Shown here piece by piece: positions 1,720-25,165 of a stretch of 64,000 nucleotides of DNA. The stretch is taken from the NCBI RefSeq assembly GCF_000213055.1, contig NZ_CM001165.1, positions 3,452,945 through 3,516,944 of the forward strand, given 5' to 3'. Source of the DNA: Streptomyces sp. Tu6071. Its GTDB lineage: Bacteria > Actinomycetota > Actinomycetes > Streptomycetales > Streptomycetaceae. The notes under the pieces are model-generated. The model worked only from the letters and a program-made list of their open reading frames with translations, made no database searches and had not been told where the DNA came from. How positions within the stretch are numbered: the first letter of the stretch is position 1; every line of letters begins with the position of its first letter. The translations under genes were made by a program, and so were the position numbers.

Positions 1720-1793
1720 CGGGGTGTGGCGCAGCTTGGCAGCGCGCTTCGTTCGGGACGAAGAGGTCGTGGGTTCAAATCCCGCCACCCCGA
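1720..1793 (+). tRNA. tRNA-Pro (CGG anticodon)
   Basis: A 74-base cloverleaf can be folded by eye. The acceptor stem CGGGGTG pairs with CACCCCG, the D-arm is GCGC/GCGC, the anticodon stem CTTCG/CGAAG encloses loop TTCGGGA with anticodon CGG, and the T-arm is GTGGG/CCCGC with loop TTCAAAT. The discriminator is A, and CCA is not encoded. The 3' part, from the anticodon loop onward, is repeated exactly at 25121-25165, so an element has integrated here while rebuilding a complete tRNA gene on the left side. Confidence 0.97.
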
Positions 1794-1796
1794 CAG
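1752..1796 (+). repeat. attL: 45-base attachment repeat
   Basis: The sequence from the tRNA anticodon loop (ttcgggacgaag) through the acceptor end (ccaccccgacag) is identical to 25121-25165. The base before it differs (g here, a on the right) and so does the base after it (t here, c on the right), so both edges of the identity block are defined. The copy lies inside the intact tRNA-Pro gene. Confidence 0.93.
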
Positions 1797-1889: not shown

Positions 1890-2036
1890 GGTCGGCTTCT
1901 CCCAGGACCGGCCTCCAGTGCCGCAGGATGAGTGACGCTCAAGCGCCCTCGGACCTGCGCGTTCGCGAATCCAGGGCTCGTAGCTGACCAGGAACGCCGC
2001 GGCGGGCCGCCCCAACGGTCGTTAGGAACACCGCAC

Positions 2037-2726: not shown

Positions 2727-2814
2727 CTTCGTCCCCGGCTTTCGTACGCGCCCTTGCCAGCGGTGCATGCCTCTCGTCCAATCGGATCGGGGAGACCGAG
2801 GGAGGGGGCACGCC

Positions 2815-3648: not shown

Positions 3649-3670
3649 GTGAAACGCTCCTGCCAAAGAC

Positions 3671-4786: not shown

Positions 4787-4916
4787 GTCGTACGTCCTTC
4801 TCGTCCACAAGAAGGGTCACACCAACGGCCGCATCAGCACAAGCACGATTCTCACAACCAGTCAGGAAGAGCAGTCGTTCACAACTTCACCGTACGGATA
4901 CCGTCCCACCCCGCCT

Positions 4917-4953: not shown

Positions 4954-6471
4954 CTACCGAGGGGCTGCCATACGTGTGCGCAGGAGGTCGTCCAGCACGC
5001 GTACAGGGGAAGTTGGGCACATGACCAGGCGAGTGCAAAGAGCCGCCTCCCACTGCTCGGTCAGGCCGAGCATAAGGCGGGAGCGCATGCCACGGGTGAC
5101 GTGCGCGTAGCGCGCCGAGACAGAACCGTCGATGTGGCCCATGCGTTCGTCCATGAGGACCTTCTCCGTACCGAGGTCCTCCATCATCGTGCGGTGGGTG
5201 TGGTGAAGGCCGTGGGGTGTGAGGCCCGTGGCGATCGGGAGCCAGCAGGCGTCCGCCCGAGCAGCAGCGCCCCGGCCTCGGGCAGGGACGCCGGGCCACG
5301 GTTCACCCAGGATCGGCACGGGGCGAGCCTCCTGCGGAGCCTTCTTGGGGTACCAGCCTGATGCTGCCGGGGTGAACAGCCAGGTGGCGAAGCCGTTTCG
5401 GCGCCAGTGAGCTGCGTGCTCCGACGTGGCGCCACCGCGTACGAACCTGAGCTCAGCGATGGCGAGTTCGACGCGTACGCGGGTGTCCTCGCTTACGCGG
5501 TCGGGGTGGTTGAGGACGTTCGAGACCGTGCCCGTGGAGACTTCGGCACGGCGGGCGACATCGACGAGCCTCGCGCCCTGGTGGCCTCCTGTGCGCGCCG
5601 CGCCTTGGCCTCGGAAGACGTACGTCCTGCCGTGACAAGGGCAGGGCGTCGGCTTCGTACGGGCGATGTGGTTGAAGACCAGGGCGGACAGCCAGTCCAT
5701 CGAGTCGATGGTGCGGTAACTATCGTCCTTGGGCGGACAGCGCACCAGCTCGCCGGTGTCCAGCTCGTACAGCCGCCATTCGACGCGAAAAGCGGCAGGT
5801 CGGACGAACCCCGTTTCCAGGCCGACGATTTCGCCCCACCGCTTGCCGGTGTAGCCCTTGAGGACCGTGGCGACGAACTCGTCGTCGCGCCCGGAGAGCA
5901 GGGCCGCCCGCTCGGCAGTCAGCAGGATGCCGAGCGCGTCGGTGACGACCTTCTCCGGGCCGCGGTCGCGAGAGCGACCGGCGCGCTTGCCTCGTCCGCG
6001 CCGCCGGGCGGCCGGGTTGGACGTGAGCAGGCCCTCGTCGATCGCGTCCTCGAAGATCAGGTGGAGCGTGGAGCGCCAGGTCTTGACGCTCGATGCCGCG
6101 TAGGCTGCGCGCTCCTTCTTCTCCCACAGCTCGACGTCCGTGCGCAGGATGCTGGCGAGCGCCTTGTCCTCGAAGTCAGGGAGCAGGTGCTCCTCGATGT
6201 GGCGCTTGTAGTTCTGCATGGTCGAGGCAGCCAGGTCCTGGGAGGCGTACCAGCGGCTCGCGTACTCGCCGAAGGTTTCCTGGCCGAGGCCCGGATCGCG
6301 CCACTGGCCACGACGAACCGCCACCTCTTCGGCGTCTGCGGCCTGCTTGGCCTCGCGCTTGGTGGCGAACTTGACCACGGCGCCCGTGGAATCGGCGACG
6401 GTGCCGTACTTGCCGTCCTCGATCTTGTAACGGCCACGCCAGTAGCCACTGCGCTTCTCTGCGTACCCCAC
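4954..6471 (-). CDS. int: tyrosine integrase with inserted LacI-type HTH
   Basis: A 505-residue site-specific recombinase that should integrate the element into tRNA-Pro. Residues about 1-60 look like an arm-binding domain, 65-150 the core-binding domain, and the catalytic domain begins near 180. Catalytic candidates are R211 (GKRWGEIVGL), H420, H445 (RMGHIDG) and the nucleophile Y455 (SARYAHVT). The normal HxxR box reads HGLH, so the second arginine (position 423) is histidine. Between catalytic blocks, residues 300-347 are a LacI-family helix-turn-helix (LVDVARRAEVSTGTVSNVL). Start GTG 6471 follows gggaggga. The excisionase-like gene ends 32 bases upstream. Confidence 0.9.
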   Translation of the reverse strand: MGYAEKRSGYWRGRYKIEDGKYGTVADSTGAVVKFATKREAKQAADAEEVAVRRGQWRDPGLGQETFGEYASRWYASQDLAASTMQNYKRHIEEHLLPDFEDKALASILRTDVELWEKKERAAYAASSVKTWRSTLHLIFEDAIDEGLLTSNPAARRRGRGKRAGRSRDRGPEKVVTDALGILLTAERAALLSGRDDEFVATVLKGYTGKRWGEIVGLETGFVRPAAFRVEWRLYELDTGELVRCPPKDDSYRTIDSMDWLSALVFNHIARTKPTPCPCHGRTYVFRGQGAARTGGHQGARLVDVARRAEVSTGTVSNVLNHPDRVSEDTRVRVELAIAELRFVRGGATSEHAAHWRRNGFATWLFTPAASGWYPKKAPQEARPVPILGEPWPGVPARGRGAAARADACWLPIATGLTPHGLHHTHRTMMEDLGTEKVLMDERMGHIDGSVSARYAHVTRGMRSRLMLGLTEQWEAALCTRLVMCPTSPVRVLDDLLRTRMAAPR

Positions 6472-6503
6472 AGATCTCCCTCCCTTCTGTCGTATGGGGT
6501 GCG

Positions 6504-6881
6504 TTAAGCAGCTGCTTCGTACTGGGACTTGGTCATCCGTCGCGGTGGCCGGGCCTGGAGCCGGACGGTGGGTACAGCCACATCGGGCCGGTGCCGAGCG
6601 GGAGGCTTGCGCGTCGGCGCAGGAGCGCCGCCGGTGCGCTGCGCATTCACGGCCGGGCGCTCTTCGTGCATGCGGATGATCCCCGCGAGGTGCTCGTCCG
6701 AGAAGCGGTAAGCACGGCCGACGCGGGTGAACGGGATGAGCCGGCGGCGGGCACGGTCCTTGACCCACCAGGCGGTGCAGCCGAGGACGGCTGCGACTTC
6801 CTCGGGGACGTAGAGACGCGGCAGGCCGGCCTCGGCGGGCGAAGTCGGTGCCGAGGCAGGGGTTATCGCGGGTTGGCGCAA
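6504..6881 (-). CDS. xis: excisionase-like HTH protein
   Basis: A 125-residue basic protein. Residues about 20-70 form a MerR/excisionase-type winged helix (LYVPEEVAAVLGCTAWWVKD, then FTRVGRAYRFSDEHLAGI). The C-terminal third is rich in Pro and Arg and probably disordered. It lies directly upstream of int on the same strand, the usual xis-int order, and should bias recombination toward excision. The start used is TTG 6881 with agagga upstream; a later start is possible because there is no strong ribosome site. Confidence 0.75.
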   Translation of the reverse strand: MRQPAITPASAPTSPAEAGLPRLYVPEEVAAVLGCTAWWVKDRARRRLIPFTRVGRAYRFSDEHLAGIIRMHEERPAVNAQRTGGAPAPTRKPPARHRPDVAVPTVRLQARPPRRMTKSQYEAAA

Positions 6882-9237: not shown

Positions 9238-10374
9238 GGCGGCCACGCCCTGCCCGCCTCTGCGCCGAGACCGCCACCCCAAGCCCACCTGGAGCACCCC
9301 CGCTTGCTTGCACGCATCACCGCCCTGCTCAGCCGAACTGATTCGCATCAGCATCGCCCCGCTGCCGATCCTGGAAGTGGCCGCCGGGCGGGCGCACGCG
9401 CCACCCTCGTTCTCGGCCTGATTGCCGTCGTCCTCATGGCCTTCCGGGTCTCGTGGAACGCGCTGTCCGACGTAGCCCGCGCCATCGGCGCCGATCCCAC
9501 CGCCGCCCTGCTCTACCCGATCGTGGTCGACGGGCTCATGGCCCTCGCACTCATCGCCACGCTTGTGCTGACCGGCTCCGACCGGGAGTTCGCGCTACGG
9601 GTACTGGCGACCTACACGATCGCCAGCCTCCTGCTGAACTACGTCCACGGGCTCATACCGACCCTGCGCACCGAGTCGACCCGGCTGGGTCGACTCACCA
9701 CCTGGGAGCCTGCGAACTGGGCCCTCGTACTGCTGGCCACATCACTCCCAGTCGGGTCGATCTACTTCGGCTCGGACCTCGTGGCAAAGGTGCTGCACCA
9801 CAAGCACGAGGCGGCCGACTCGGCCCAGTCGGTCAGCCGGCAACGAGAAGAATCCGCTGGCCAGCGCGCCAGGGAGCAGGCCGCACCGTCGGTGACCGAC
9901 CGAGCCGAATCGGTTCCCGAGGAGCCGTCCGAGTCGATTTCCACGAAGGTCGACGAGGCACACATGACGGGATCGACCGGAGCCGACGAGTCGGCCCTCA
10001 CTGCCCGACCGCCCCGGTCGACCACCACGGCGAAGTCGACCAAAGCCGCCCCGCACGAGACGACCGGTCCGCGTCTCACCAACGCCGAGTCGACCACCGA
10101 CCGCCACCGCACCGACGCCGAAGTGCTCGCTGAAGGCCGTCGCCTGACCGCCGACTGGAGCGACGACCTGTTGACCGCCAAGCGACTGCGCAGCGAACTG
10201 CGGATCGCCCAGATGCGCGCCCGCACCGTGCGCGACCAACTGAGGGCCGAGCGCGCCAGTCGCCCCGAGCCTGTCGCGGACGATGGCTTCGGGGGCCAGC
10301 GTCTCGGCACGTACGACGACGCCAAGTTCCAGCAGCAAAGGGAAGCCGCCGCAGTCCCCTCCGCCACCGCCTGA
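9214..10374 (+). CDS. DUF2637 membrane protein, SpdB-like
   Basis: A 386-residue protein with about four hydrophobic segments between residues 65 and 190 (TLVLGLIAVVLMAF, ALLYPIVVDGLMALALIATL, VLATYTIASLLLNYVHGL, WALVLLATSLPVGSIYFG). The DUF2637 signature LLYPIVVDGLMA is clear. The C-terminal half is Ser/Glu-rich, then helical (TAKRLRSELRIAQMRARTVR). Such proteins are frequent on Streptomyces plasmids among spread genes, which act in movement of plasmid DNA within the mycelium. The start at 9214 is uncertain because the first 60 residues are low complexity and overlap the repeat cluster. Confidence 0.65.
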   Translation: MVRVPAPHGGHALPASAPRPPPQAHLEHPRLLARITALLSRTDSHQHRPAADPGSGRRAGARATLVLGLIAVVLMAFRVSWNALSDVARAIGADPTAALLYPIVVDGLMALALIATLVLTGSDREFALRVLATYTIASLLLNYVHGLIPTLRTESTRLGRLTTWEPANWALVLLATSLPVGSIYFGSDLVAKVLHHKHEAADSAQSVSRQREESAGQRAREQAAPSVTDRAESVPEEPSESISTKVDEAHMTGSTGADESALTARPPRSTTTAKSTKAAPHETTGPRLTNAESTTDRHRTDAEVLAEGRRLTADWSDDLLTAKRLRSELRIAQMRARTVRDQLRAERASRPEPVADDGFGGQRLGTYDDAKFQQQREAAAVPSATA

Positions 10375-10474
10375 TCCAGCGCACGCCCTGGCCGCCCCCT
10401 CTATGCCGACAAGCACGAGGGGGCACCCACATACAGCTAACACTCGCCCCCAGCACTCCACGGAGAACCAGCCC

Positions 10475-11140
10475 ATGCGCGACCCGCACCACGAACTCGC
10501 CATCCCGCAGCAGGAGATGGCCACCGGCCTGAACAGCGCAGCAAGGTATCCCGCTGGACCGTCCAAGGGCCGGCCTCACGGGGAAGCCTCCGCCCCGGGG
10601 GTGGCGGAGGCACTCGGGCACCAGGGGGTGCCCGAGCAGGAACAGCCCACCGCCGTCGCCGACAGGACTGCTGCCGTCGAGATGCCATTGCCGCGTGCCG
10701 CAGAAGAAGCCGCCTTGCACCGCGTCGCCCAACGTCGCAAGCCCGACCCCAACGGCCGTCGCGAGGGACGAGTCGACGTCCGCTACAGCGAAAAGGAAGA
10801 GGCCGACATACGCGCCAAGGCAGCGTCGCTGAACCTCAGCGGCGCCCACTACGTTGCCGCAGCCACTCTGGCCCACGTCCACGGCGACCTCACCCTGGTC
10901 GGCCAGCGCACCCAGCTCGACGACTACATCGACGAGATCAATGCCCTGCGCGAGCAGGTCACCGCCATCGGCCGCAACGTCAACCAGATCGCCAAGAAGC
11001 TCAACTCCGGCGGCCATCCACACCCTGGGGACAGCGCCCTCCTCGCCCAGACCGACCGGAGCCTGAACGCCGTGGGTGAGGCCGTGCGCCGCATCGCCAC
11101 CGCCGCGAACCAGGCCGTCAGCCATAAGGCGGCCCGATGA
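10475..11140 (+). CDS. mobC: MobC-like relaxosome protein
   Basis: A 221-residue basic protein. The C-terminal half matches the MobC family: GRVDVRYSEKEEADIRAKAA, LNLSGAHYVAAATLA (ribbon-helix-helix-like DNA binding), then LREQVTAIGRNVNQIAKKLN. MobC binds near oriT and helps the relaxase open the strand. ATG 10475 has ggaga 8 bases upstream. Its stop overlaps the relaxase ATG by four bases, so the two are translationally coupled. The first 70 residues are low complexity and their DNA contains two tandem hairpins. Confidence 0.85.
   Translation: MRDPHHELAIPQQEMATGLNSAARYPAGPSKGRPHGEASAPGVAEALGHQGVPEQEQPTAVADRTAAVEMPLPRAAEEAALHRVAQRRKPDPNGRREGRVDVRYSEKEEADIRAKAASLNLSGAHYVAAATLAHVHGDLTLVGQRTQLDDYIDEINALREQVTAIGRNVNQIAKKLNSGGHPHPGDSALLAQTDRSLNAVGEAVRRIATAANQAVSHKAAR
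10587..10636. repeat. two tandem hairpins in the 5' part of mobC
   Basis: Inverted repeat one: cctccgcc (10587-10594) and ggcggagg (10603-10610). Inverted repeat two: ctcgggcacc (10613-10622) and ggtgcccgag (10627-10636), a perfect 10-base stem with a 4-base loop. The pair lies about 500 bases before the relaxase gene, where oriT-associated hairpins may occur. Confidence 0.5.
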
Positions 11141-12825
11141 TCGCGAAGATCACTGGAGGCAAGGACACCGCCAACCTGATCCGCTACCTCTACGACACGG
11201 AGAAGAAGGGCCACACCAACCCGCACCTGGTCGCCTCCTGGGACGGCTTCGCCCCCGACCCTGGCCGCACCCCCGATTTCGACGCCACGAAGCGAGCTCT
11301 CGTCGCCGACCTCGACCTGCACGTCAAACAGGCCGCGCGGCTCGGCCGGGCACCCGAGAAGCACGTGTGGCACTGCTCGATCCGCGCCACCAAGACCGAC
11401 CGCCACCTCAGCGACGAGGAATGGGGCGACATCGCCCGCCGGATCGTCGCCGCAACCGGCATCGCACCCGACGGCGATCCGGACGGCTGCCGCTGGGTCG
11501 CCGTCCGCCACGCCCCCGACCACATCCACATCGCCGCCAGCACAGTTCGCGCCGACCTGCGCACCGCCCGGCACTGGAACGACTACCTCACTGCCGACCG
11601 CGAACTCGCAGCCGTCGAAAAGGAGTACGGTCTCTTCCAGGTCATACGCGGGGATCGCACAGCCGCGAAACGGCCCACCCGTGCCGCGCAGGAGAAGGCC
11701 AAGCGCGCCGGCCAAGCCCGCACCGCCCGCGAACACCTGCGCACCACCGTGCGCACCGCCGTGGCCGCCGCCACCAGCACCGAGGAGTTCGTCCACCTGC
11801 TGGAGCGCACCGACGGCATCCTCGTGGACATCAAGCACTTCCCGTCCGGTGATGTACGCGGCTACACCGTCGCCCTCAACGGCGACGTCAACGCCCAGCA
11901 GAAGCTGATCTGGTACTCCGGCTCCGAACTCTCCCCCGACCTGTCCCTCCCCAAGATCCGCAAGCGTCTAGAAGCCACCGACCCCCAGCACAGCCCCCGT
12001 CGGGTGAACCCGTGGCACCAGGCAACCGCCGCCGCGGAACGCATCCCCCACCACCTCGACGGCGATGACGATGCAGCCGCTCAGGCCCACCTGGCCGCCT
12101 TCGGTGAAGCCCTCGACGCCCTGCCGATGCAAGCACCCCAGGAGATTCGTCCCCAGCTATGGCAGGCAGCCGAGGCGTTCGAGCGCGCCACCCGCTCCCG
12201 CGTCCAGGCCGAGCACCAGCACGCCCGCGCCCTGCGTATCGCCGTACGAGCCATGGTCCGCGAGCCCGCCCCCAAGGACGGCGCGCTGCTGGCGATGTTC
12301 CTCGACGCAGCGATCCTCGCCGTCATCGCCGCCGCCCGCTGGCACCAGCTCCGCCACCACGACCAACAGGTGGCCGCAGCCCACCAGACCCTGATCCACC
12401 TGCAAGCCGCCTACGAGCAGACAGCCACCGCACCCCTGACCGCCCTCGCCCAGCGCCGGCCACCCCAGCAGATCGTGGAACGGCACATCCTCCTCATCCG
12501 ACAGGCCATGCCTGCCCACGCCGAGCAGGTGGTCGAGGACTTGGCCTTCGACGCCCTCACTGCCGCCCTCGCGACCGCCGAGAAGGACGGGCATGATCCG
12601 AAGCAGCTACTGCAGCAGGCCACCGACGAACGGGCGCTCAACGACGCCCGCAGCCCTGCACGGGTACTGACCTGGCGCATCGAGCGGCTCAGCACCAGGT
12701 CGGTTCCGAGCGACCGTGCACGAGTGGCACGGATGCGGAGCGCGGCACGGCGGCAAGGCACATCGGTCAGCCCGGCAGCGGTCGCGGCCTCGCAGCCACA
12801 GCCGCCCCAGGCACGTCGACGCTGA
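11137..12825 (+). CDS. mobA: MobA/VirD2-type relaxase
   Basis: A 562-residue relaxase. The N-terminal domain starts MIAKITGGKDTANLIRYL. Its metal-binding three-histidine motif is RHAPDHIHIA near residue 132. The catalytic Tyr is probably one of those in the first 20 residues (LIRYLYDTEK). The rest, to residue 540, is helical and rich in Ala and Arg. It nicks oriT and stays covalently bound to the transferred strand. It is coupled to mobC by an ATGA overlap. With no coupling protein in the element, transfer would need a helper's secretion machinery. Confidence 0.88.
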   Translation: MIAKITGGKDTANLIRYLYDTEKKGHTNPHLVASWDGFAPDPGRTPDFDATKRALVADLDLHVKQAARLGRAPEKHVWHCSIRATKTDRHLSDEEWGDIARRIVAATGIAPDGDPDGCRWVAVRHAPDHIHIAASTVRADLRTARHWNDYLTADRELAAVEKEYGLFQVIRGDRTAAKRPTRAAQEKAKRAGQARTAREHLRTTVRTAVAAATSTEEFVHLLERTDGILVDIKHFPSGDVRGYTVALNGDVNAQQKLIWYSGSELSPDLSLPKIRKRLEATDPQHSPRRVNPWHQATAAAERIPHHLDGDDDAAAQAHLAAFGEALDALPMQAPQEIRPQLWQAAEAFERATRSRVQAEHQHARALRIAVRAMVREPAPKDGALLAMFLDAAILAVIAAARWHQLRHHDQQVAAAHQTLIHLQAAYEQTATAPLTALAQRRPPQQIVERHILLIRQAMPAHAEQVVEDLAFDALTAALATAEKDGHDPKQLLQQATDERALNDARSPARVLTWRIERLSTRSVPSDRARVARMRSAARRQGTSVSPAAVAASQPQPPQARRR

Positions 12826-13650: not shown

Positions 13651-14260
13651 GCACGTCCTCCGGGACCTCCTGCTCGATGGCGAACCCGAGCTTCGGATAC
13701 TCGATCACCCGCTGGAGGTCGCCGACGAGCATGTCCACCACGAGCTTCTCGTCGCCGATGGACTTGAGGTAGTCGTCGAACTCCAGGGTTTCCGAGGCGC
13801 ACACCATCTCGGCCTCGGGCCACAGCTTGCGGGCGGTGGCGTACGACCGCCGTTCCATGTAGGGCTTGGAGACCAGCAGCACCTTCTCCGGGGTGATGCC
13901 GGCGTCGGCCAGGACCTCGCGGGCGAGGGTGATGTTCTGCCCGGTGTTCGCGGCGTGGGGCTCCAGCAGGATCGCTGAGGCTGGGACGTCGAGGTCGATG
14001 GCGTGCTCGCGGAAGTGGACCGCTTCGCCGCGAGGGAAGACCTTGGCGGTGGTCGGGCTGTTGCCACCGGTGAAGACCAGCGTGGGGAAGAGACCCGCGT
14101 GGTACAGCTCGGCGGCCCGCGTGGCCACTCCCAGGTCGTGGCTGCCCAGGCCGATCGCCACGTCCACGGGGCGGGCCTGGTGGTGCATCTGGTGAAAGTC
14201 CCAGATCGCCTTGGCCTGGTGCCACTGGTCTTCGGCGATGCCCTGCTGGTTGTCACTCAC
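13592..14260 (-). CDS. YdcF/ElyC/SanA-like (DUF218) protein
   Basis: A 222-residue soluble protein with the DUF218 pattern: DVAIGLGSHDLGVATRAAEL, then PTLVFTGGNSPTTA, EPHAANTGQNITLAREVL and VLLVSKPYMERRSYATARKL. Most DUF218 proteins are membrane-anchored and act in envelope biology; this one lacks a membrane segment. Its ATG overlaps the stop of the XRE regulator (ATGA). The biochemical activity is unknown. Because it is coupled to the regulator and to the WbqC protein, the three likely share one function. Confidence 0.8.
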   Translation of the reverse strand: MSDNQQGIAEDQWHQAKAIWDFHQMHHQARPVDVAIGLGSHDLGVATRAAELYHAGLFPTLVFTGGNSPTTAKVFPRGEAVHFREHAIDLDVPASAILLEPHAANTGQNITLAREVLADAGITPEKVLLVSKPYMERRSYATARKLWPEAEMVCASETLEFDDYLKSIGDEKLVVDMLVGDLQRVIEYPKLGFAIEQEVPEDVHAAYESLIHAGFTSRLIAS

Positions 14261-15381
14261 GCGTTCGTCTCCCTGATCACCGTCGGCGAGGCCCCGGGCG
14301 GCCCCTCACTGCTGGCCTTGACGCTCTCGATACTGCGCAGTTGGTGCACGAGGCCGTACTGCGCGGCCGTCCGAGCGGCCTGGCCGAGAACGCGTAGCCC
14401 ATCATCGCGGGTCGCCGTGTCGGAGAGCAGGATGTGGCCGTGAGCGGTGTCCAGTCGTACGCGTTGCATCGGTGAGTCGGTGCTCCCGCTGCTTCGGGCG
14501 ATGTCGATGAAGTGCATGGCCTGGGTGAGGTCTCCGACGCCCCGGCGGGCCAGGGCTAGCTTCTGATGGGCCACCGACCAGTCGTCGGGTTCGGTGAGGT
14601 CTTCGAACTCACGGGTCGCGGCCTGCATCACGCGGGTCGCGTAGTCGTGGTTGCCGTCCTTGCTGAGTGCCGTGCCCACCCACAGGCGGGCTCTGGCCCG
14701 GTCACGGCGAGAGAGCCGGTCGTCGACAGCGAGCGTCTCGTACGTACGGGCCGACGCCTCCAGGTCACCGGACATCTCCGAGACGACCGCGAGGGACAGA
14801 TCGAGCTGGGCGACGCGGCGGGGGATGTCGAGCTGGGTGAAGATCGAGCGCGCGCCCGCGTAGGAGTGGCGTGCGGACAGCGGTCCGAGCACGGCGCCCC
14901 GATCACGCTTGAGGTCTCCGAGTAACGCGGTGGAACGGGCGTAGAGGTACAGGCCCTTGTCGTCGAGTTCGGCGGCCGTGAAACGGTTGAGCCATCGGCC
15001 CAGCAGGCTGTCCGCGAAGGTGAAGTTCTGTCGGGACAAGGCGACAACGGCACGATCCAGGTCGTCGGTCCACGACTCGTACTCCCAGGCTCTGGGCCCG
15101 GCAGCCGTCACCCGGCGTCCGGCTGCCACCTGCCCGGGGCCGGCCATCTCCGACAGCAGCGTTTCGAAGCGCAGGTGCACGGAGGCATCGGCGCGGCCGA
15201 GCGCGGTGTCGAGAATGGCCTGCGTGTCAGGGCGGGGCTCGGTCGCGGACCGGAGCTTTTCCCACTTGGAGATGGTCGCGACGGCGAGACCGAGTCGCTC
15301 GGCGAAAGCCCGCACACTCAGGCGGAGGGCGAGCCGTAAGGCTCTGGCCTCCAGGCCGGTCCAATGGTGCACGGTCGCCAC
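14257..15381 (-). CDS. XRE regulator with TPR-like C-terminal domain
   Basis: A 374-residue protein. Residues about 8-65 are an XRE helix-turn-helix (RALRLALRLSVRAFAERLGL, TISKWEKL). The remainder is a helical repeat region with TPR-like spacing (YARSTALLGDLKRDRG, AQLDLSLAVVSEMSGDLEAS, AHQKLALARRGVGDLTQAM). Such regulators often sense a peptide or small ligand. GTG 15381 is chosen because ggaaggga lies 6-8 bases upstream; an ATG 24 bases earlier is the alternative. It is divergent from the radical SAM operon with about 155 bases between, so it is the best candidate to control both. Confidence 0.8.
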   Translation of the reverse strand: MATVHHWTGLEARALRLALRLSVRAFAERLGLAVATISKWEKLRSATEPRPDTQAILDTALGRADASVHLRFETLLSEMAGPGQVAAGRRVTAAGPRAWEYESWTDDLDRAVVALSRQNFTFADSLLGRWLNRFTAAELDDKGLYLYARSTALLGDLKRDRGAVLGPLSARHSYAGARSIFTQLDIPRRVAQLDLSLAVVSEMSGDLEASARTYETLAVDDRLSRRDRARARLWVGTALSKDGNHDYATRVMQAATREFEDLTEPDDWSVAHQKLALARRGVGDLTQAMHFIDIARSSGSTDSPMQRVRLDTAHGHILLSDTATRDDGLRVLGQAARTAAQYGLVHQLRSIESVKASSEGPPGASPTVIRETNA

Positions 15382-15535
15382 GCGTCGCTCCCTTCCACCA
15401 GCCATGGAAGCAGAAGCGTGCGGCCGGTGGGGCGGAAGTAGAGCGCAAGTGGAACAGCGGGCGATTCCCTGCGCGTTGGGGTACGGCGACGCTCAAGGGG
15501 TCACTCTTTCGCCGAGTCCCTGGACGGTCACCAGC

Positions 15536-15964
15536 ATGGAACTCCTTACCGAGCACCGTCCGGTCAACGGGCCCGTCGTCTACGGCTTCCTGCGGCTGGT
15601 CGGCGTCTCCGTAGCCCGTCAAACGGCGTTACAGGCGTCACTGACGGAGTACTGCCGGATCCATGAGCTGCAGCTCTCCGGCGTCTTCAAGGACAGGCGC
15701 GCGACGACCGATCCGACCTCCACCGCCTTCACCGGTCTGCTGGACGCGCTGGCCCTTCCCGATGTCTACGGCGTCATCGTCCCCGCCCTGTCCCACCTGG
15801 GACCGAAGCACCTCGCCACCGAACGCACGCGCCGTATCGAGGCCACCGGCGCCCGCCTGCTGCTGGCCCGCCGTCCCCGCATCGGACCCGTCCACGTACC
15901 TCGCCACCCGATCGCCCACCGCCGCTTCCCCGCACCACTTCGCCCCCTGAGCACGGAGTCATGA
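15536..15964 (+). CDS. resolvase-domain-like protein, probably inactive
   Basis: A 142-residue protein resembling the N-terminal catalytic domain of serine recombinases: YGFLRLVGVSVARQTALQAS, YCRIHELQLSGVFKD, then LLDALALPDVYGVIVPALSH. The usual arginine-rich end of this domain (R-x-x-R) reads SHLGPKH, the Y-x-R-x-S box is altered, and there is no DNA-binding tail. A recombinase role is therefore unlikely; such stand-alone domains may be regulatory. It is the first gene of the operon and overlaps the next by four bases. No clear ribosome site is present. Confidence 0.55.
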   Translation: MELLTEHRPVNGPVVYGFLRLVGVSVARQTALQASLTEYCRIHELQLSGVFKDRRATTDPTSTAFTGLLDALALPDVYGVIVPALSHLGPKHLATERTRRIEATGARLLLARRPRIGPVHVPRHPIAHRRFPAPLRPLSTES

Positions 15965-16425
15965 GGCACCCCATGCCCGAGTCGCTTCAGCAGTTCTTCG
16001 ACGCTCGACACCAGTCCGTCCGCAGGGCAAGGGAGTTCGCCATCCGGGCGCTGGACGGCTGGGGCCTGACGAGCCGCACCGAGGACATCCGCCTGTGCGT
16101 CTCCGAACTCGCCACGAACGCCGTCGTCCACGGCACCGCCCGCGGGCACGGCTTCCTCGTCCGGCTCGACATCGACGACAACTGCGTACGCCTGGAAGTG
16201 CACGACAGCCGTCGCCAGCAGCCCGTCGTACGCGAGCCGGCCGTCACAGACATCTCCGGGAGGGGCCTGATGTTGGTGGCCGCGCTCTCCGACGAGTGGG
16301 GAGTGAAGGACCGTACCCCGCTCGGAAAGGTCATCTGGTCCTGCTTCAAGACCGCGGGTGACGACGCAAACCCGATCAGCCCTCCCGGCTCAGACCGCGA
16401 CGACCGCCCTTTGGAGGTCCGATGA
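15961..16425 (+). CDS. RsbW-like ATP-binding protein
   Basis: A 154-residue HATPase_c domain protein. The N-box is LCVSELATNAVVHG, the G1-like box VHDSRRQ and the G2 box GRGLMLVAALSDEWG, at the usual spacing for anti-sigma factor kinases and related Streptomyces regulators. It may bind a sigma factor or an anti-sigma antagonist, or act as a partner for the SAM enzyme; which of these is unknown. ATG 15961 overlaps the stop of the preceding gene, and its own stop overlaps the radical SAM start, so the whole operon is tightly coupled. Confidence 0.75.
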   Translation: MRHPMPESLQQFFDARHQSVRRAREFAIRALDGWGLTSRTEDIRLCVSELATNAVVHGTARGHGFLVRLDIDDNCVRLEVHDSRRQQPVVREPAVTDISGRGLMLVAALSDEWGVKDRTPLGKVIWSCFKTAGDDANPISPPGSDRDDRPLEVR

Positions 16426-17582
16426 CCGCAACCGGCACACCGGATCGGGCTGCGCCTGCCGCATCAAGCACGCGTCTCGTGGCCAGCCCGTTCCTCGCCC
16501 AGCACCTCCTTCTTCAGCCAGGCCATGCGGTCGGTGTGCGCATTCCTGGGATCCGCTACGAGGAGCTGCGCGCCGCGAGCCACGAGGGAGACCCCCTGCC
16601 GGCCTGGCTTGCCGATGCCGCACGGCAGGCGTGGGGCATCGAACTGCCCGACGGGCCGGTCGGCGATTTCGTCCTCGTCCGTGAGCGTTCGCCGTACGGG
16701 TACGCGAAGGCATCCTGGGAGATCAACCTCGGCTGTGACTACGACTGCGAGTTCTGCTACCTCGGCGAGAAGCGCTTCGAGGGCCTGGACTGGGCGGGCA
16801 AGCAGCAGCTCCTGCGGACGATGCGCGACGCGGGCGTGCTCTGGCTGCAGATCACGGGTGGCGAGGCACTGATCGACCGCGAGTTCGGCGCGGCCTACGA
16901 GTACGCCCACCAGCTCGGGATGATGGTGCAGGTCTCTTCGAACGGCTCGTCCCTGCGCAAGCCGCCGATCCGCGGGCTGTTCGCACGCCGTCGCCCCTAC
17001 CGGCTTACCCTCAGCGTCTACGGCGCGACCGCGGGTATTTACGACAAGGTCACCCGCAACTGCGGCGCGTTCGACCGGTTCATCCAGGGCCTGGACGCCG
17101 CCCACCAGGACCGGCTGCCGGTCCGGCTGAACGTGATCGTGTCGGACGACAACGCTCACGAACTCGACGCGATGGTGGCTCTGTGCGCGCGCTACGCCTT
17201 CCCGCACCAGGTCTTCACGAACATGTCGCCGACGATCGACGGCGAGGCGAACCCGCTGGCGACGCAGGCCGAGGGCCACATCAAGGCCCGGAGCGTCTTC
17301 AGCGGCTGCAACGCGGGCCGGACCTTCTTCCACGTGAACCCGCACGGGATCGCGTCCGTCTGCAAGGTCGGCCGCGACCCGAGCGTGAACCTCGTGACCG
17401 AGGGCGTCGCCGCCCTCCCCCGGCTCGGCGCCATCGCCGAGTCCCTACAGCTCCGCACCGGTGGATGCTCCGGCTGCACGAAGGTCGGCACCTGCCGTAC
17501 CTGCCGGCCGCTGGCCAAGCTCTACCAGGAGGCGGGGGACCGTCGAGAGCTCTACTGCCAACACGGAGGCTACGGATCATGA
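16422..17582 (+). CDS. radical SAM/SPASM enzyme
   Basis: A 386-residue radical SAM enzyme. The [4Fe-4S] motif is C105-x3-C109-x2-C112 (NLGCDYDCEFCYLG), followed by the TGGEAL box near 145-150. The C-terminal region has SPASM-type cysteines (296, 314, 349, 352, 358, 361, 379) that should hold auxiliary clusters. Such enzymes usually modify peptides or proteins. The start overlaps the ATPase stop and the end overlaps the ATG of a 70-residue Cys-tailed peptide gene, the typical arrangement of a maturase and its precursor. That substrate is inference, and the type of crosslink cannot be predicted. Confidence 0.88.
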   Translation: MTATGTPDRAAPAASSTRLVASPFLAQHLLLQPGHAVGVRIPGIRYEELRAASHEGDPLPAWLADAARQAWGIELPDGPVGDFVLVRERSPYGYAKASWEINLGCDYDCEFCYLGEKRFEGLDWAGKQQLLRTMRDAGVLWLQITGGEALIDREFGAAYEYAHQLGMMVQVSSNGSSLRKPPIRGLFARRRPYRLTLSVYGATAGIYDKVTRNCGAFDRFIQGLDAAHQDRLPVRLNVIVSDDNAHELDAMVALCARYAFPHQVFTNMSPTIDGEANPLATQAEGHIKARSVFSGCNAGRTFFHVNPHGIASVCKVGRDPSVNLVTEGVAALPRLGAIAESLQLRTGGCSGCTKVGTCRTCRPLAKLYQEAGDRRELYCQHGGYGS

Positions 17583-17791
17583 CCCCACCCACCACACCCC
17601 TCACCCCGCCACGCGAACCGGTGCTGCTCACCATCGGACGGCGCCCCACCGATGGTGCAACCGGCGCCCTGGCCGTGCCACTTCCGGCCGCAGCCATCCG
17701 TGACGACGAGGTCCAGATCATCGCCGACCTGGACGAGGCCGCCGAAGGCGCCGAGTGCAGCTGCTCGGCTGGCGACGACCAGCCGTACTAG
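17579..17791 (+). CDS. candidate RiPP precursor peptide with CxC tail
   Basis: A 70-residue peptide. The N-terminal 55 residues are Pro/Thr-rich, then hydrophobic and acidic (EPVLLTIGRR, VQIIADLDEAAEG), as in leader peptides. The tail is AECSCSAGDDQPY, with the only two cysteines (60 and 62). Its ATG overlaps the radical SAM stop by four bases. No transporter or peptidase gene lies nearby. It is too short for homology-based assignment by eye; the precursor role rests on size, coupling and the Cys-rich tail. Confidence 0.6.
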   Translation: MTPPTTPLTPPREPVLLTIGRRPTDGATGALAVPLPAAAIRDDEVQIIADLDEAAEGAECSCSAGDDQPY

Positions 17792-17835
17792 ACACACCGC
17801 AGGCGGGCGCCGCACCGCTCGCGTACGCGCCCCAT

Positions 17836-17874
17836 GAGTGCCGCCCCGGTCATACCCTGTCTGGGGCGGCACTC
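17836..17874 (+). terminator. terminator after the radical SAM/peptide operon
   Basis: A perfect 12-base stem (gagtgccgcccc/ggggcggcactc) with a 15-base loop, followed by ccttgttt. It lies 44 bases after the peptide stop and 31 bases before the phosphotransferase start. It should end the operon or attenuate readthrough into the next gene. Confidence 0.75.
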
Positions 17875-17905
17875 CCTTGTTTCCGAGCCCCATGAGGAAC
17901 CGCGC

Positions 17906-18706
17906 GTGTCCATGTCTCGCATTCCCTTCGAGCAGCTCCCCGCCGACGTCCGCCAAGCTGTCACCGACAAGACCGGCCCCGTGCATCAGGCGGTGACCAT
18001 GACCGGCGGCATGAACTCCGGCGTCGCCTCCGTCCTGGAGACCGAGAGCGGCAGCGTTTTCGTGAAGGGCATCGCGAGTGATCATCCGCAGGTCGCAGCA
18101 CAGCGGCGCGAGGCGGAGATCGCCCCCCACCTGCCAACGTCCTGTCCCCGCCTTTACTGGCACCTGGAAGTCGGTGGATGGAGTCTCCTCGGATACGAGG
18201 TCCTCAGCGGTCGCCATGCCGACTACAGCCCCGGCTCGGCCGACTTGGTGCTCGTAGAAGCCGCGCTCACCGACCTGCAACGGATCACAGCTCCGGCCGA
18301 CATCGAGATCAAGGACGCGGTGGACCGCTGGGCGGATTACGCTCCGCCCGGAACGCTCCAGCACTTCAGCGGCAACACCCTGCTGCACACCGACTTCGCA
18401 CCACACAATGTCCTGATCGCCGACGGGCGTGCTCGCCTCATCGACTGGGCGTGGCCAACGCGCGGTGCGGCGTGGATCGATCCAGGCGCCTTGGCGCTGA
18501 GGCTCATGGACGCCGGCCACCCGGCGGAGGACGCGATCATGTTCGCAGGCCGCTTCCCGTCGTGGCGGAACACCGATCCGGAGGCACTCACGGCATTCGG
18601 TTCCGCATCTGCGGCGCTGTGGCGGGAGATCGCCCAGGAGGATCCAACGCCCTGGAAGCAGCGGATGGCCAAGCGAGCCGCTGCGTTCAGGCTCGTACTC
18701 CTCTAA
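17906..18706 (+). CDS. aminoglycoside phosphotransferase-like kinase
   Basis: A 266-residue APH-family protein. The catalytic loop is LLHTDFAPHNVLI (H-x-D-x4-N) and the metal-binding motif is LIDWAWP, at the spacing of small-molecule kinases. The N-lobe starts QAVTMTGGMNSGVASVLETE. The substrate could be an antibiotic, a choline-like compound or the product of the neighbouring operon. GTG 17906 is chosen because gagga lies 8 bases upstream; the longer frame from 17834 runs through the terminator hairpin. It is on the same strand as the radical SAM operon but behind its terminator. Confidence 0.75.
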   Translation: MSMSRIPFEQLPADVRQAVTDKTGPVHQAVTMTGGMNSGVASVLETESGSVFVKGIASDHPQVAAQRREAEIAPHLPTSCPRLYWHLEVGGWSLLGYEVLSGRHADYSPGSADLVLVEAALTDLQRITAPADIEIKDAVDRWADYAPPGTLQHFSGNTLLHTDFAPHNVLIADGRARLIDWAWPTRGAAWIDPGALALRLMDAGHPAEDAIMFAGRFPSWRNTDPEALTAFGSASAALWREIAQEDPTPWKQRMAKRAAAFRLVLL

Positions 18707-19130: not shown

Positions 19131-20364
19131 CTACTGCGCGGGGTCGACAGGGACGGATGTTGCCAGGGCCATTTCGATGGCCGCTACGGCGTCAGTAAGC
19201 CTGCGGTAGATGGGCGTCGAACGCCCCATGCGCCTCAGGCCGTGCTGCAACGGATCGCGCATGTGCTTCTCGCAGACGACAAAGTCCGCGTATCCGGCCG
19301 CGCAGGAAAGGTAGATCATGTCAGTCAGGTCATTAGGGCGCCACCTCGTGCCCTTGTTGAGATGCCGACTCTGAAGCATCTCCCGGAAGAGGCCGACAGC
19401 AGGAGACTCGCCAATGGCCCGCACCCAGCCTTTGAAGCCCCAGCGCCGGAACAGTTCCTTCGAAACGTCTGCCGCAGCTGCCTCCTCGGCCAGTTCCCGC
19501 TGCAGATCCGTCACGAGGTGGATGTCAATGGCCCTGCGCTTCTGTTGTGAGTCCTGGTCAAGCTCGTCCAGCCAGTCACTGAACCGCTGGCTTGCCGCGG
19601 TCCACCCGGTGTCCGGCCCCTCCCCAACCCTCTGGGTGTCGAGCATGGCATCGATGGAGCCGGAGGCAGCGACTAGCGCCTCGGGCTGGAAAACAAAGTG
19701 GTTCTGGAACGTAGACGGCATCTCAGCACCAGCCTCGGCTCGGCGGGTAGGGGAGTGAAGAGCATCCGGGTCGAGAGTGAAAACCGGGGCATTACGCACG
19801 TTGCCGGGTCGATCTAGTCGGTGGCAAAAGGCATCGTAAATCTCGTTTCGTCGGACCTGCAGCGGATCGCGCATCTGCCAGCCTCGGCTGTACTGAAGGA
19901 TCGTCAACCCGAGGTCGTAGCGCTTATCCGTGCTGAACCGTTTGCCGGTCTCGTAGTAATGGCCGGCAGAAACAGGCAAGACGATCCGGCGTTGGTCCAC
20001 CCATTCTTTGAGTCTCAGGGCAGCGGCTCGATCTGCCTCGCTGCTCGTCGGCGCACCGTGGGATGCGTTGCTCAGCAAGCTCCACTGGTTCTGGTCGAGG
20101 TACACGACGAGCCGTCCTGCCAACTGATCAGGGGCCCCCGCCAGTGGCATTTCGAAGAGGACCTGATCACCGCTCAGGGTGGTAGCGAGGAGGGCTGCCA
20201 AGGCTGGACTGAAGTCCAGTCTGGCTATGACGCTCGTGTCCTCGAACGGGGAGGGGTCCAGGGGGGAACCGGGCCTCCTTCCCATCCGAGCGGGTGAAGA
20301 TGGTGCACGATGCCGCGCGATCCATCGTGACGAGCTTGATGGAGAGGGTGCTTTCGTCTTCCAC
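19131..20364 (-). pseudogene. PIN-like domain protein, apparent frameshift
   Basis: The likely N-terminus (MEDESTLSIKLVTMDRAA to DGKEARF) is in one frame from ATG 20364, while the rest (DTSVIARLDFSPALAALL onward to 19131) is in the next frame. The switch falls in a run of six G on the plus strand (20261-20266); with five bases the two parts join smoothly at ARF-P-LDPSPFEDT. The body has PIN-like features: VVYLDQNQWSLLSNA (acidic metal site), ETGKRFSTDKRYDLGL and LTDMIYLSCAAGYADFVVCE near the C-terminus. Intact, it would be about 410 residues and may be an RNase toxin or effector. Frame loss could be real or a sequencing error. Confidence 0.55.
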
Positions 20365-20511
20365 AGCACCTATCTTGCGGTGCTTCTCCCGAGAACGTGA
20401 AGGGGCTTAATTCCGCATACGCGGACCCCTGCGTTGTTTCCAGGGCCACTTTGGGCGCCAAGTGCGGAACACAGCTCCCCATAAGCTTCGAGCAGGCGCC
20501 CCACCGGGGGT

Positions 20512-20913
20512 TCAGCTCAGCAGCCCATTCACGGCATGCGCGAGAGCCTCTCCGCTCTGCTGGACAACCGTCCCGAGAACGAGTGCCGGCAGCGCCTGCG
20601 CGACCCCCCTCAACGTGGTCGCGCTCTCGGCCGGGGCCGTGAGCGAGCCGTCTACCGTGCCCGCCATGGCCCTCAGCGCCTCTACGTGCTGTAGACCAGC
20701 CGCGTTGCGGTCCAGATCCTCGCGGAACGTGATGAGGAGATCCCGAACGGCCTCGACGTCGGTGGTCCCGTCTGCCGATGCAGCTTGGTACACGCGTGAG
20801 ATGTTCTGCCCGACGACATTCTGGAGTGGGGCGATGTTGTTGCCGCCGATACTGATGCCCGACCCGTGTCCCGGTTCGGATGTGGGGTCCGGTCGGCGTC
20901 GTCCGATGGCCAT
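20512..20913 (-). CDS. small protein with GNN-type repeat motif
   Basis: A 133-residue soluble protein. Near residues 18-40 it has GSGISIGGNNIAPLQNVVGQ, a glycine/asparagine motif that recurs at the C-terminus of the adjacent 591-residue membrane protein. The remainder is helical (DVEAVRDLLITFREDLDRNA). It lies 11 bases downstream of that gene on the same strand, so the two are co-transcribed. The shared motif suggests that they interact. The family is not certain; small Streptomyces proteins with such motifs exist (DUF5955-like is a guess). Confidence 0.6.
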   Translation of the reverse strand: MAIGRRRPDPTSEPGHGSGISIGGNNIAPLQNVVGQNISRVYQAASADGTTDVEAVRDLLITFREDLDRNAAGLQHVEALRAMAGTVDGSLTAPAESATTLRGVAQALPALVLGTVVQQSGEALAHAVNGLLS

Positions 20914-20924
20914 TTCTTTCCTCC

Positions 20925-22700
20925 CTATTTAGCGGGGCCTTGTCCAACGTTGCTGTTGCCGTTGCCGACGACGTTCTGGATGGGCGCGTTGTTGTCGCCA
21001 TAGATCTGGATGTTGTTGGTCACGGCGGCTACCTGCTGGTCGTATGCGGTGGTGTCGATGCCCCGGTCGCGCAGGTAGGAGGCAACCGTGCGGAAGACGC
21101 AGGTCTCTATGAGGACGACGTGGCGCTTGGCATCGTCGCTCTGGTGCATATCAGTGACTTCCTCGGTCGAGTACCGGTCTCTGATGCTTACCGGGCCCTC
21201 TTCCTCGACGTGACTCTCGATGCTCTCGCCGAGACCGATACGGGCCACCCTTCGCCACAGAGTGAGTGGACCGACAACTGCATCCAGGAGAGCCTGGACC
21301 GTTACCCATCTCCACAGCCGTATGCCGTGCTGCCCGGCAGAGGCAGCCGTCACTTTCAGCTCGTTGTAGAGCGGGGTCATCACGTGCGGTCGCACGGTCA
21401 GCCTCAACTCACCCGCTTCCAAAGCAGCGTGCACGAAAACGCTGACCACGACCTGGCCGTTCCAGGTGATGCACTGCGCGCGCAGGTATAGGCGTTCCGG
21501 CTCACTGGAAGGCGACTTACGGCCCCTGCCCGCCAGGTCTGGGGCTTCCCCGTTTCCCTCCCGAGTCCGCTGTAGCCAGAGGTGGGACGGTAGCCCGAGC
21601 ACCCGCTCCATGGAAAACCCTGGCAGCGGGTCCGTGATCTCCCTTACGCCACGGCCCAATTCGTCAAGTGCGGCACCTACACGCCGCAGTAGTTCGGCTT
21701 CACCGAAGGACTTGACCGGCTCCTCGGGGTCTTTAGGCTTTAGAGGGATGTTGATGTGGGCGGCTCCCCAATGATCACGGCCGGCACCGATGAAGTGCTG
21801 CGAAGCGTCGTAGGGCAGGAGACGCCCCTCCTGCTCCTCTCCGAGCACGGATACCCTCCGAGAGGCCCTCGGCGTCGCCCACGGCAATGCATCGCGGGAG
21901 ACCTTCTCGCGGCTCAACACGGACAGCGCGGATCTCGCAAGGAGCCGGTCCCCGGCATACACCACCACCATCCCGGCGAGAAAGCCGAACGGCACTACGG
22001 CTAGGCCAAGACGAGTCGCCGACACCACGTCCCCACCCGAGTGGTAGGGCACCAGCGCAAGCAGCCATGGGATGACGAGAGGTAGGTATGCCAGACGTGG
22101 GCGACGGGCCAATCGACTGTTGCGCCTCTGTTTGCGCTGGGCTCGAAACGCTGCCCACCTCATGGTGAGGGCGATCGTGATTGCCCCCAGCCAGATCGCT
22201 GTCGCCCAAGGAGTGACGTACCCGACTCCTGCCAGAAGCAGCAGGAAGCACAGACGCCGTAGGCGTTTACCTCGGTGCGCACGCACACTGTGCCTCACCA
22301 CAGGGACAAGATCGAACCCATAGGACGGCACGGGAGCCGGCGGGCCATTCAGTACGTGGTCGACAACCCACTGAGCCGTCGGTTCACCCAGCGGAGGGCA
22401 GTCGTCGCTGCCCTCCAGGTAGATGGGCCGACGCGTGCTACGACGCGGCCTCTTCGCGGGGGCGTTTTTGCCCCGGAACATGCGCCACCATGCCTTGATT
22501 TGCTTCGCTCGGTCCGGCCGCGCGTACACCGCTTGACACAGAAGCCTCGTCACCTCGGTGGCCGTCGGTTCCACCTCAGCAGGCCGAGGGGTATCAGCTA
22601 GGTGCGGTGCCCGCTGCGTGGGGACACCCGGCCATTGGCCGGGTCCCGACTCCCCGTGCCTCTTCCTCCCCCGGGCCTTGGTGCCCCAGGCAGCTCCCAT
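20925..22700 (-). CDS. membrane protein with C-terminal GNN motif
   Basis: A 591-residue protein. The first 130 residues are basic and soluble. Hydrophobic segments lie near 134-168 (LCFLLLLAGVGYVTPW, WLGAITIALTM) and 190-245 (LPLVIPWLLALVPY, LGLAVVPFGFLAGMVVVYAG). The large C-terminal cytosolic part ends QIYGDNNAPIQNVVGNGNS, matching the motif in the next gene. Start ATG 22700 is preferred; a GTG 18 bases upstream is possible. With the downstream partner it forms a sensor/effector-like pair of the kind seen in defence islands; function unproven. Confidence 0.6.
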   Translation of the reverse strand: MGAAWGTKARGRKRHGESGPGQWPGVPTQRAPHLADTPRPAEVEPTATEVTRLLCQAVYARPDRAKQIKAWWRMFRGKNAPAKRPRRSTRRPIYLEGSDDCPPLGEPTAQWVVDHVLNGPPAPVPSYGFDLVPVVRHSVRAHRGKRLRRLCFLLLLAGVGYVTPWATAIWLGAITIALTMRWAAFRAQRKQRRNSRLARRPRLAYLPLVIPWLLALVPYHSGGDVVSATRLGLAVVPFGFLAGMVVVYAGDRLLARSALSVLSREKVSRDALPWATPRASRRVSVLGEEQEGRLLPYDASQHFIGAGRDHWGAAHINIPLKPKDPEEPVKSFGEAELLRRVGAALDELGRGVREITDPLPGFSMERVLGLPSHLWLQRTREGNGEAPDLAGRGRKSPSSEPERLYLRAQCITWNGQVVVSVFVHAALEAGELRLTVRPHVMTPLYNELKVTAASAGQHGIRLWRWVTVQALLDAVVGPLTLWRRVARIGLGESIESHVEEEGPVSIRDRYSTEEVTDMHQSDDAKRHVVLIETCVFRTVASYLRDRGIDTTAYDQQVAAVTNNIQIYGDNNAPIQNVVGNGNSNVGQGPAK

Positions 22701-22739
22701 ACATTCCCCCGTTCTCACTTACGGCGGGCATTTTCACGG

Positions 22740-23055
22740 CGAATGACGGAGACCGCCAGACCACAAAAGCGACATTGTGCACAACAGGCCGCAGCGCGCG
22801 TAGGAATGGCCGAAATATGTTCAGCTTCGGCAGACCGAAGTCCTGCGAAGATCCACCAGTGAAGGAGGGGGAATGGAAGCGCAGCTCAGCCCACCGAACG
22901 GATCTCGCGGAAGGTCTGCATCCACTTACCCAGGAGATTGGGCTCTGCCAACAGATCGATTTCGAGGCACGACCTGAAGGTTTCCCCTGTCTAGCTGAAC
23001 CGCTGGCGTCCGTCGCCGACCACCAGCGCGCAGCTGGCCACGGAGCAGACCGCGC
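22740..23055. other. intergenic, no gene seen
   Basis: About 315 bases between two minus-strand genes. Short plus-strand frames here lack ribosome sites and Streptomyces-like third-position bias. It probably holds the promoter of the 591-residue membrane protein gene near 22720-22760. No repeat or hairpin stands out. Confidence 0.5.
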
Positions 23056-23394
23056 TCACGAACTGGGGCTCACCTTGGGGCGCGCTCGTGAGCTGGGCTT
23101 TAGCTCCGCGATTGGATGACGCGTTGTCGGCCGCGCCGACCGCACATCCGGCTCGCAATGGAACATCTCATCGATACGTTCGAGATCATTTTCGGTAAAG
23201 TACACAAACTTGCCGATCTTCCCATGCGGCAGCTCCATGATGTGGGCCCGCAGCCAGTTCTCACTGACGCGCAATTCTCGGGCCGCCTCGGGGTATGTCA
23301 TCCGCCCTTTGCGCTTAGGGTCGCAAGGCATCTTTTTTGAACGGCCGCCGATCAGGCAGCGACTGTAGGCCACCTTGGGTCCCTCAGAACTCAT
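23056..23394 (-). CDS. small HTH (excisionase-like) protein
   Basis: A protein of up to 113 residues. The middle (RMTYPEAARELRVSENWLRA, then HGKIGKFVYFTENDLERI) is an excisionase/MerR-type winged helix. It is distinct from the xis-like gene next to int. The start is uncertain: ATG 23394 gives the longer form, ATG 23331 a shorter one beginning MPCDPKRKGR. Its place near the right end of the element, ahead of a membrane protein gene on the same strand, suggests a second recombination directionality factor or a regulator of the right-end cargo. Confidence 0.55.
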   Translation of the reverse strand: MSSEGPKVAYSRCLIGGRSKKMPCDPKRKGRMTYPEAARELRVSENWLRAHIMELPHGKIGKFVYFTENDLERIDEMFHCEPDVRSARPTTRHPIAELKPSSRARPKVSPSS

Positions 23395-23517
23395 GCTTGC
23401 ACCGCGCAATCTCAGAGCAGGCGGAGCCAATGCCGACGGGCTCAGCTCTCACCCGCCCAGTGTGACACCAGTTAGGCCGTCGCTAGGCAGCACCGTTCCG
23501 CCGAACCATCAACCTCG

Positions 23518-25120: not shown

Positions 25121-25165
25121 TTCGGGACGAAGAGGTCGTGGGTTCAAATCCCGCCACCCCGACAG
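25121..25165 (+). repeat. attR: 45-base attachment repeat
   Basis: Identical to 1752-1796 (ttcgggacgaag through ccaccccgacag). There is no 5' half of a tRNA in front of it, so it is a tRNA-Pro 3' fragment and not a second tRNA gene. It marks the right end of the integrated element. Confidence 0.93.

Follow-up and report, generated by a model that had tools for sequence, protein, structure and literature searches.

We analysed a stretch of 64,000 nucleotides (hereafter the window) of the 7.5-Mb genome of Streptomyces sp. Tu6071 (contig NZ_CM001165.1, positions 3,452,945 to 3,516,944), which carries a gene for a radical S-adenosylmethionine (SAM) enzyme and, overlapping its end, a small open reading frame (ORF). 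We consider it likely (probability of roughly 0.85) that the two genes belong to a mobile three-gene cassette for a ribosomally synthesized and post-translationally modified peptide (RiPP), in which, at most loci, a kinase gene, a GNAT acetyltransferase gene or both lie downstream of the enzyme and the precursor. Judging from the sequences, the small peptide is almost surely the substrate of the coupled enzyme, and the product of the cassette is probably a modified peptide. A preliminary description of this DNA had already paired the enzyme with the peptide; the third gene, a class of precursors with a single Cys and the distribution in phages are newly recognised here.

Radical SAM enzyme and its peptide partner

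The radical SAM/SPASM-type enzyme, our proposed peptide maturase, is encoded at 16422..17582 of the window (+ strand, 386 aa) and matches the Pfam radical SAM family PF04055 with 36.3 bits (cut-off 29.5). The cluster ligands CX3CX2C (C105, C109 and C112; 16734..16757, + strand) are followed by a seven-Cys SPASM-type region (C296, C314, C349, C352, C358, C361 and C379; 17307..17558, + strand). Both the C-x3-C-x2-C motif and the seven C-terminal cysteines had been noted before, and all ten residues proved to be invariant in the 59 aligned enzymes (the query and 58 of the 120 homologues listed). A separate Pfam SPASM match was not found at E<=0.01. The N-terminal domain (residues 16-92; 16467..16697, + strand) has a bbb-aa arrangement resembling the RiPP recognition element (RRE), and we propose that it binds the leader. 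The RRE leader-binding domain is defined as bbb-aaa in PMC12710340. The closest full-length fold matches of the enzyme, N-terminal domain included, are SkfB (the best) and SuiB (the second). Its closest named relatives come from Streptomyces and sister genera, and most named database entries among the relatives of the enzyme and the peptide read 'radical SAM protein' or 'hypothetical protein'.

The 70-aa precursor peptide (17579..17791, + strand) starts inside the enzyme stop codon, with a four-base overlap (ATGA). It has two Cys, both within the last 13 residues; these properties of length, Cys content and overlap are as originally described. The proposed core, AECSCSAGDDQPY, spans residues 58-70 (17750..17788, + strand). 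None of the Pfam and NCBIfam models matched the peptide.

The preliminary description had called for a check of whether the peptide is kept with the enzyme across genomes. We compiled 166 loci from a search for related loci, from genome searches in the genus, the class and the family, and from the stretches around a part of the further matches. Far relatives (L032-L052, 22-27% identity) were left out, and the removal of 19 duplicates resulted in 147 unique loci. A peptide of the family is present in 144 of them, while the remaining three are unscorable: the enzyme of L031 is cut at residue 189, and L127 and L192 lie at contig ends. A pattern search at the expected position identified the tails of 138 peptides, and six more (L146-L150, L157) were assigned by eye. 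In a control that excluded ORFs ending at the peptide spot, the tail motif occurred in only one of 7515 other ORFs (30-150 aa) of the same 147 loci. The start codon of the peptide is located at the four-base overlap in 96 of the 144 loci and within -10 to +20 of the enzyme stop in 42 more. In the reverse test, the window peptide matched 33 times in 32 of 295 genomes of the same genus; 30 of these adjoin an enzyme gene or what is left of one, the exceptions being three weak matches (G237, G202:C7 and G262). In 11 of the 147 loci, whose enzyme genes are broken, cut or split, fewer than 300 enzyme residues could be aligned; the peptide is kept in 10 of them. The enzyme of L030 has an in-frame stop. 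The conserved pairing put forward for maturase and precursor is thus well supported, while the modification itself is what we infer from it.

The aligned peptides fall into two classes, with C-x-C (98 of 144) and with a single Cys (46 of 144), and their cores end in roughly DDNPY. The frequent tails, found in 89 of 94 loci, are CSCSAGDDQPY, CSCDAGDDNPH, CSCNAGDDNPY, GCNDDNPYR or GCGDDNPYN. Conservation reaches its maximum at the extreme C-terminus, around the Cys and DDNP, whereas the leader and the linker are variable. All 144 peptides share the last Cys and the Pro; outside this set, Pro is replaced once by Val (viral contig L210, tail ...SSDQVYNN). Pro is directly preceded by Asn or Gln in 143 peptides, and the acidic column preceding DNP holds Asp in 134, Asn in six and Glu in four. 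The leader contains an Asp in 132 of the 144, and Cys is confined to the last 13 residues in 141. The classes differ in the spacing between the last Cys and the first acidic residue. In the C-x-C class it is three residues in 77 of 98 peptides, zero in 17 and two in four, with an acidic residue at Cys-X3 seen by eye also in the CDAGDD and CQADDD types; in the single-Cys class it is one residue in 40 of 46 and two in six. The median length of the 144 peptides is 54 aa, subject to uncertainty in the start codons. UniRef lists one peptide cluster (P0036) as 'ATP-grasp-modified RiPP', perhaps a wrongly transferred name; in this family the coupled enzyme is of the radical SAM type.

Both genes are under purifying selection among 22 close relatives. 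For 175 pairs with synonymous divergence (pS) above 0.2, the peptide shows a median nonsynonymous divergence (pN) of 0.139 against a pS of 0.359 (pN/pS about 0.40); the corresponding values for the last 300 codons of the enzyme are 0.068 and 0.369.

Third gene of the cassette

The third gene in the window (17834..18706, + strand) encodes an APH-type kinase; its conserved start is possibly the ATG at 17912. The kinase matches PF01636 at E 6e-4 with 20 bits, which is below the cut-off of 23.2, and carries the motifs HTDFAPHN and DWAW. In the consensus of 92 kinase sequences HTD...N and DWaW are prominent. Of 98 complete sequences, 82 and 92, respectively, carry the strict form of these patterns, and some copies appear truncated. 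A comparison with PDB sequences returned no match at E<=0.1, and the far kinase relative in L072 had no Pfam match.

APH-type and GNAT genes substitute for each other at the same downstream spot. A kinase alone is encoded in 98 of the 147 loci, a GNAT alone in 40, both in three and neither in six, so that kinases total 101 and GNATs, which form the C-terminal domain of their protein, total 43. The choice is associated with the residue after the core Pro (six tails were read by eye). It is Tyr in all 101 kinase loci, whereas the 40 GNAT-only loci have His (32), Phe (5) or Asn (3). As ten of these 40 have only about 1.5 kb of downstream sequence, a more distant kinase may have escaped notice; where 2.4 kb or more is available (30 loci), the residue is His in 24, Asn in three and Phe in three. 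Among the six loci with neither gene, L110 has Phe, L116 and L194 have Tyr and retain no more than a fragment of the enzyme, and three are without a scored peptide. A transposase-like ORF, recognised by eye, lies downstream in L116. Phage, plasmid and viral loci follow the same direction: Tyr occurs in all nine with a kinase, in L210 after Val rather than Pro, and a GNAT-only locus (L207) has Phe. We rejected a two-way rule, as viral contigs L205 and L206, with identical peptides, are GNAT-only and yet have Tyr. The association is therefore a one-way rule: the kinase implies Tyr, in 110 of 110 kinase loci.

Distribution in genomes, plasmids and phages

The enzyme occurs in 57 of the 295 sampled genomes of the genus (E<=1e-30, fragments included). 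In tblastn searches the cassette was also found in eight plasmid records (one chromosome-sized, and two for a single megaplasmid) as well as in Streptomyces phage Success (L200; two records of one phage). Genes 3, 2 and 1 of this phage, at the genome end, encode the enzyme, a 38-aa peptide ending in GCGDDNPYN and the kinase; genes for helix-turn-helix (HTH) proteins and a tyrosine recombinase start within the first 7 kb. Gene 3 is labelled 'oxidoreductase', yet its product is a radical SAM enzyme of the cassette family (44% identity). The record names Streptomyces lividans as the host. Enzyme, peptide and kinase follow each other in this order in the phage-plasmid phiDSM40276, too; the kinase is recorded as 'aminoglycoside phosphotransferase' there and as 'kinase' in phage Success. 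Ten viral contigs carry the cassette, and the enzyme of one (L211) is 91% identical to that of phage Success. Phage genes nearby encode a tail protein and an endolysin (L208), a portal protein (L209), a DnaB helicase and a primase (L210) and an integrase (L204).

Integrative element and neighbouring genes

In the window, a tRNA-Pro gene (1720-1794) overlaps attL (1752..1796, + strand), which comprises the tRNA 3' end plus 2 bp and recurs as an exact 45-bp copy, attR, at 25121..25165 (+ strand). Between the repeats lie genes for an integrase of the tyrosine-recombinase type (4954..6768, - strand; PF14659, PF22022 and PF00356), for a MobC-like protein and a relaxase (10283..12825, + strand; PF05713 and PF03432), and for DUF3631 and DUF2637 proteins. 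The start of the integrase is uncertain (4957-6600 was scanned), and its central part holds an inserted LacI-type HTH domain (PF00356, 52.6 bits). The attachment repeats, integrase, MobC and relaxase make the cassette the cargo of an integrated element of about 23.4 kb, in agreement with the earlier proposal of an integrative element. By its gene content, this tRNA-Pro element is probably mobilisable.

Two further genes upstream of the enzyme had been pointed out in the preliminary description. The RsbW-like ATPase (15961..16425, + strand), which overlaps the enzyme start, is real (PF13581, HATPase_c_2, 60 bits) but is not a conserved partner, as it is found upstream in 10 of the 56 loci with at least 2.9 kb of upstream sequence. 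The 'resolvase-like' ORF matches neither a Pfam nor an NCBIfam model at E<=0.01 and is conserved in only seven of the 125 loci with called neighbours. On these counts neither gene was accepted as a component of the cassette, and the same holds for the WbqC gene (9 of the 125 loci) and the YdcF gene (12 of the 125), which occur in the nearer relatives. An XRE-type HTH regulator is encoded at 14257..15405 (- strand; PF01381), and clusters of XRE-type genes are located upstream in 32 of the 56 loci; most of these clusters have an HTH-matching member, cluster 8 being assigned by eye. A Nudix gene is upstream in five of the 56.

No leader protease or exporter recurs beside the cassette, a statement that for the element in the window covers a part of its ORFs. 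An MFS-like cluster occurs in five of 125 loci, and the MFS and ABC Pfam families have two members each among 107 neighbour representatives (25 of 114 families listed). Since no conserved transporter or protease is nearby, the product may act intracellularly or use host export.

Genes at 1932-4810, just inside attL, encode an HTH-DUF488 protein with its partner (PADLOC PDC-M19A/B) and a DUF3644 protein (PDC-S19), and by these matches are candidate anti-phage defence genes. Between the kinase and attR, at 19131-24570, there are three long minus-strand ORFs (412, 597 and 350 aa) that match neither Pfam nor PADLOC models at E<=0.01; the sequence NNIQIYGDNNAPIQNVVG occurs near the end of the ORF at 20925-22718. 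In Streptantibioticus parmotrematis (L014) an oligonucleotide cyclase of a cyclic oligonucleotide-based anti-phage signalling system (CBASS) and an E1-E2 fusion are encoded at 9352-11870, about 2-3 kb after the kinase, and the three ORFs of the window are possibly an undescribed cargo system in the place where L014 has CBASS.

Proposed mechanism and alternatives

In the mechanism that we propose, the N-terminal domain of the enzyme would hold the peptide leader while the radical cluster abstracts hydrogen from the short core. The invariant Cys would most likely become joined through a thioether to one of the neighbouring Asp-Asp-Asn/Gln-Pro residues. The kinase might then phosphorylate the Tyr beside Pro, or a Tyr-containing product, either as tailoring or for self-protection; at kinase-less loci the acetyltransferase would take its place. 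The product could serve in competition, signalling or phage exclusion.

It might be argued that the peptide is not a substrate at all and acts instead as a regulator, as a toxin or antitoxin, or as a stabilising enzyme subunit. Taken alone, translational coupling is also what one would expect of an enzyme subunit or of a toxin-antitoxin pair carried by mobile DNA. However, a conservation peak at the C-terminus combined with a variable leader and linker is what RiPP precursors display, and the enzyme resembles the RiPP maturases SkfB and SuiB, which makes this the least probable of the alternatives. Only slightly better are the chances of a peptide-derived redox cofactor, similar to pyrroloquinoline quinone (PQQ) or mycofactocin and cut from the C-terminal DDNPY, rather than a toxin or signal. 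The core is indeed short, C-terminal and often Tyr-ended, and the nearest NCBIfam entries include mycofactocin and haem-synthesis radical SAM enzymes. Yet those scores are far below the cut-offs (57 versus 265 bits for mycofactocin), the presence of the genes is patchy (57 of 295 genomes) and extends to phages and mobile elements, the GNAT-only loci of the 147-locus set are without Tyr, and no user enzyme recurs nearby apart from the third gene. We therefore find a cofactor improbable.

The kinase and the acetyltransferase may be self-immunity enzymes that inactivate a toxic product instead of taking part in its biosynthesis. The interchange of APH-type and GNAT genes at one spot, together with the retention of a phosphate-accepting residue in kinase loci, fits this; tailoring enzymes, however, predict the same pattern, both genes are present together in three of 147 loci, and the product is not known to be toxic. 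Self-immunity is an option that we hold possible and lean against. A phage- and element-borne exclusion system, in which the RiPP blocks competing mobile DNA or phages intracellularly or between neighbours and the kinase or acetyltransferase activates or neutralises the peptide, appears unlikely. In its favour are the PADLOC candidate genes inside attL and the CBASS pair of L014. Against it, the kinase, peptide, ATPase and regulator matched no PADLOC model, the enzyme matches the viperin core only, and each of the 25 PADLOC families listed, out of 91, matches one to three of the 107 neighbour representatives (of 225 clusters). The enzyme tree, built from 139 sequences with L113, short enzymes and the viral and plasmid loci left out, contains only two independent kinase-Tyr contrasts; both are concordant (sign test, p 0.5), and shared descent could explain much of the kinase-Tyr pattern.

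The proposed three-gene RiPP cassette adds a widespread radical SAM peptide family whose precursor in the window lies outside Pfam and NCBIfam models. The alternation of kinase and acetyltransferase, along with the one-way Tyr rule, opens direct and cheap tests of RiPP-associated kinase function, for which the complete three-gene copy in a phage with a Streptomyces lividans host offers a small model system.

Comparison with known systems

To our knowledge, the cassette core fits no known motif, and words of the core tail returned 0 matches in the open-access literature. We found no paper there that names the family; the 22 pathways in the supplement of PMC9062424 may include it. The preliminary description's term 'undescribed' accordingly holds within the literature and model libraries searched. 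Among 25 of the 37 NCBIfam matches of the enzyme, no model scored over its cut-off, the best reaching 59 bits versus 500. Membership in the AhbD, NirJ, MoaA, BlsE and viperin families was rejected on such scores.

The sactipeptide maturases SkfB, StsB and AlbA, which have an N-terminal RRE, are similar to the cassette enzyme in CX3CX2C, in the SPASM-type cysteines and in the small Cys-bearing precursor next to them. Crosslinks from the Cys sulfur to an alpha-carbon mark the sactipeptides. However, the enzyme scores only 30.7, 52.7 and 28 bits against their NCBIfam cut-offs of 300, 625 and 850, respectively, and the cassette differs by a core with one or two Cys near the C-terminus and a DDNP stretch and by the lack of a conserved transporter or protease. 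Freyrasin, a ranthipeptide made by PapA/PapB, is comparable to the C-x-C class, which has an acidic residue at Cys-X3 (CSAGD in the window peptide); PapB is reported to require a strict Cys-X3-Asp for its thioether (PMC8172795). Yet freyrasin has six motifs compared with one in the cassette, and the single-Cys class is Cys-X1- or Cys-X2-acidic in 46 of 46 peptides. The PapB motif fits the C-x-C class but not the single-Cys class, which breaks the Cys-X3-Asp spacing.

The streptide maturase SuiB is the runner-up in fold, as noted above. Streptide contains a Lys-Trp crosslink, and neither residue is present in the window core. Mycofactocin maturation involves MftC, a radical SAM-SPASM enzyme that acts on the C-terminus of a small peptide; the cassette enzyme scores 57.1 bits against its model TIGR03962 (cut-off 265), the core is different and the genes are mobile cargo. 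Prokaryotic viperins share the radical SAM core only (PADLOC pVip, 47 bits; NF038283, 38.2 versus 180), whereas the cassette enzyme is coupled to a peptide and contains both an N-terminal domain and a SPASM-type region. Class V lanthipeptide clusters include an APH-type kinase with a HopA1-like partner, but the kinase of the cassette is associated with Tyr and not with Ser/Thr. Overall, in its sequence features the cassette resembles radical SAM RiPP systems, yet it rises above the cut-off of none of the curated subfamily models tested.
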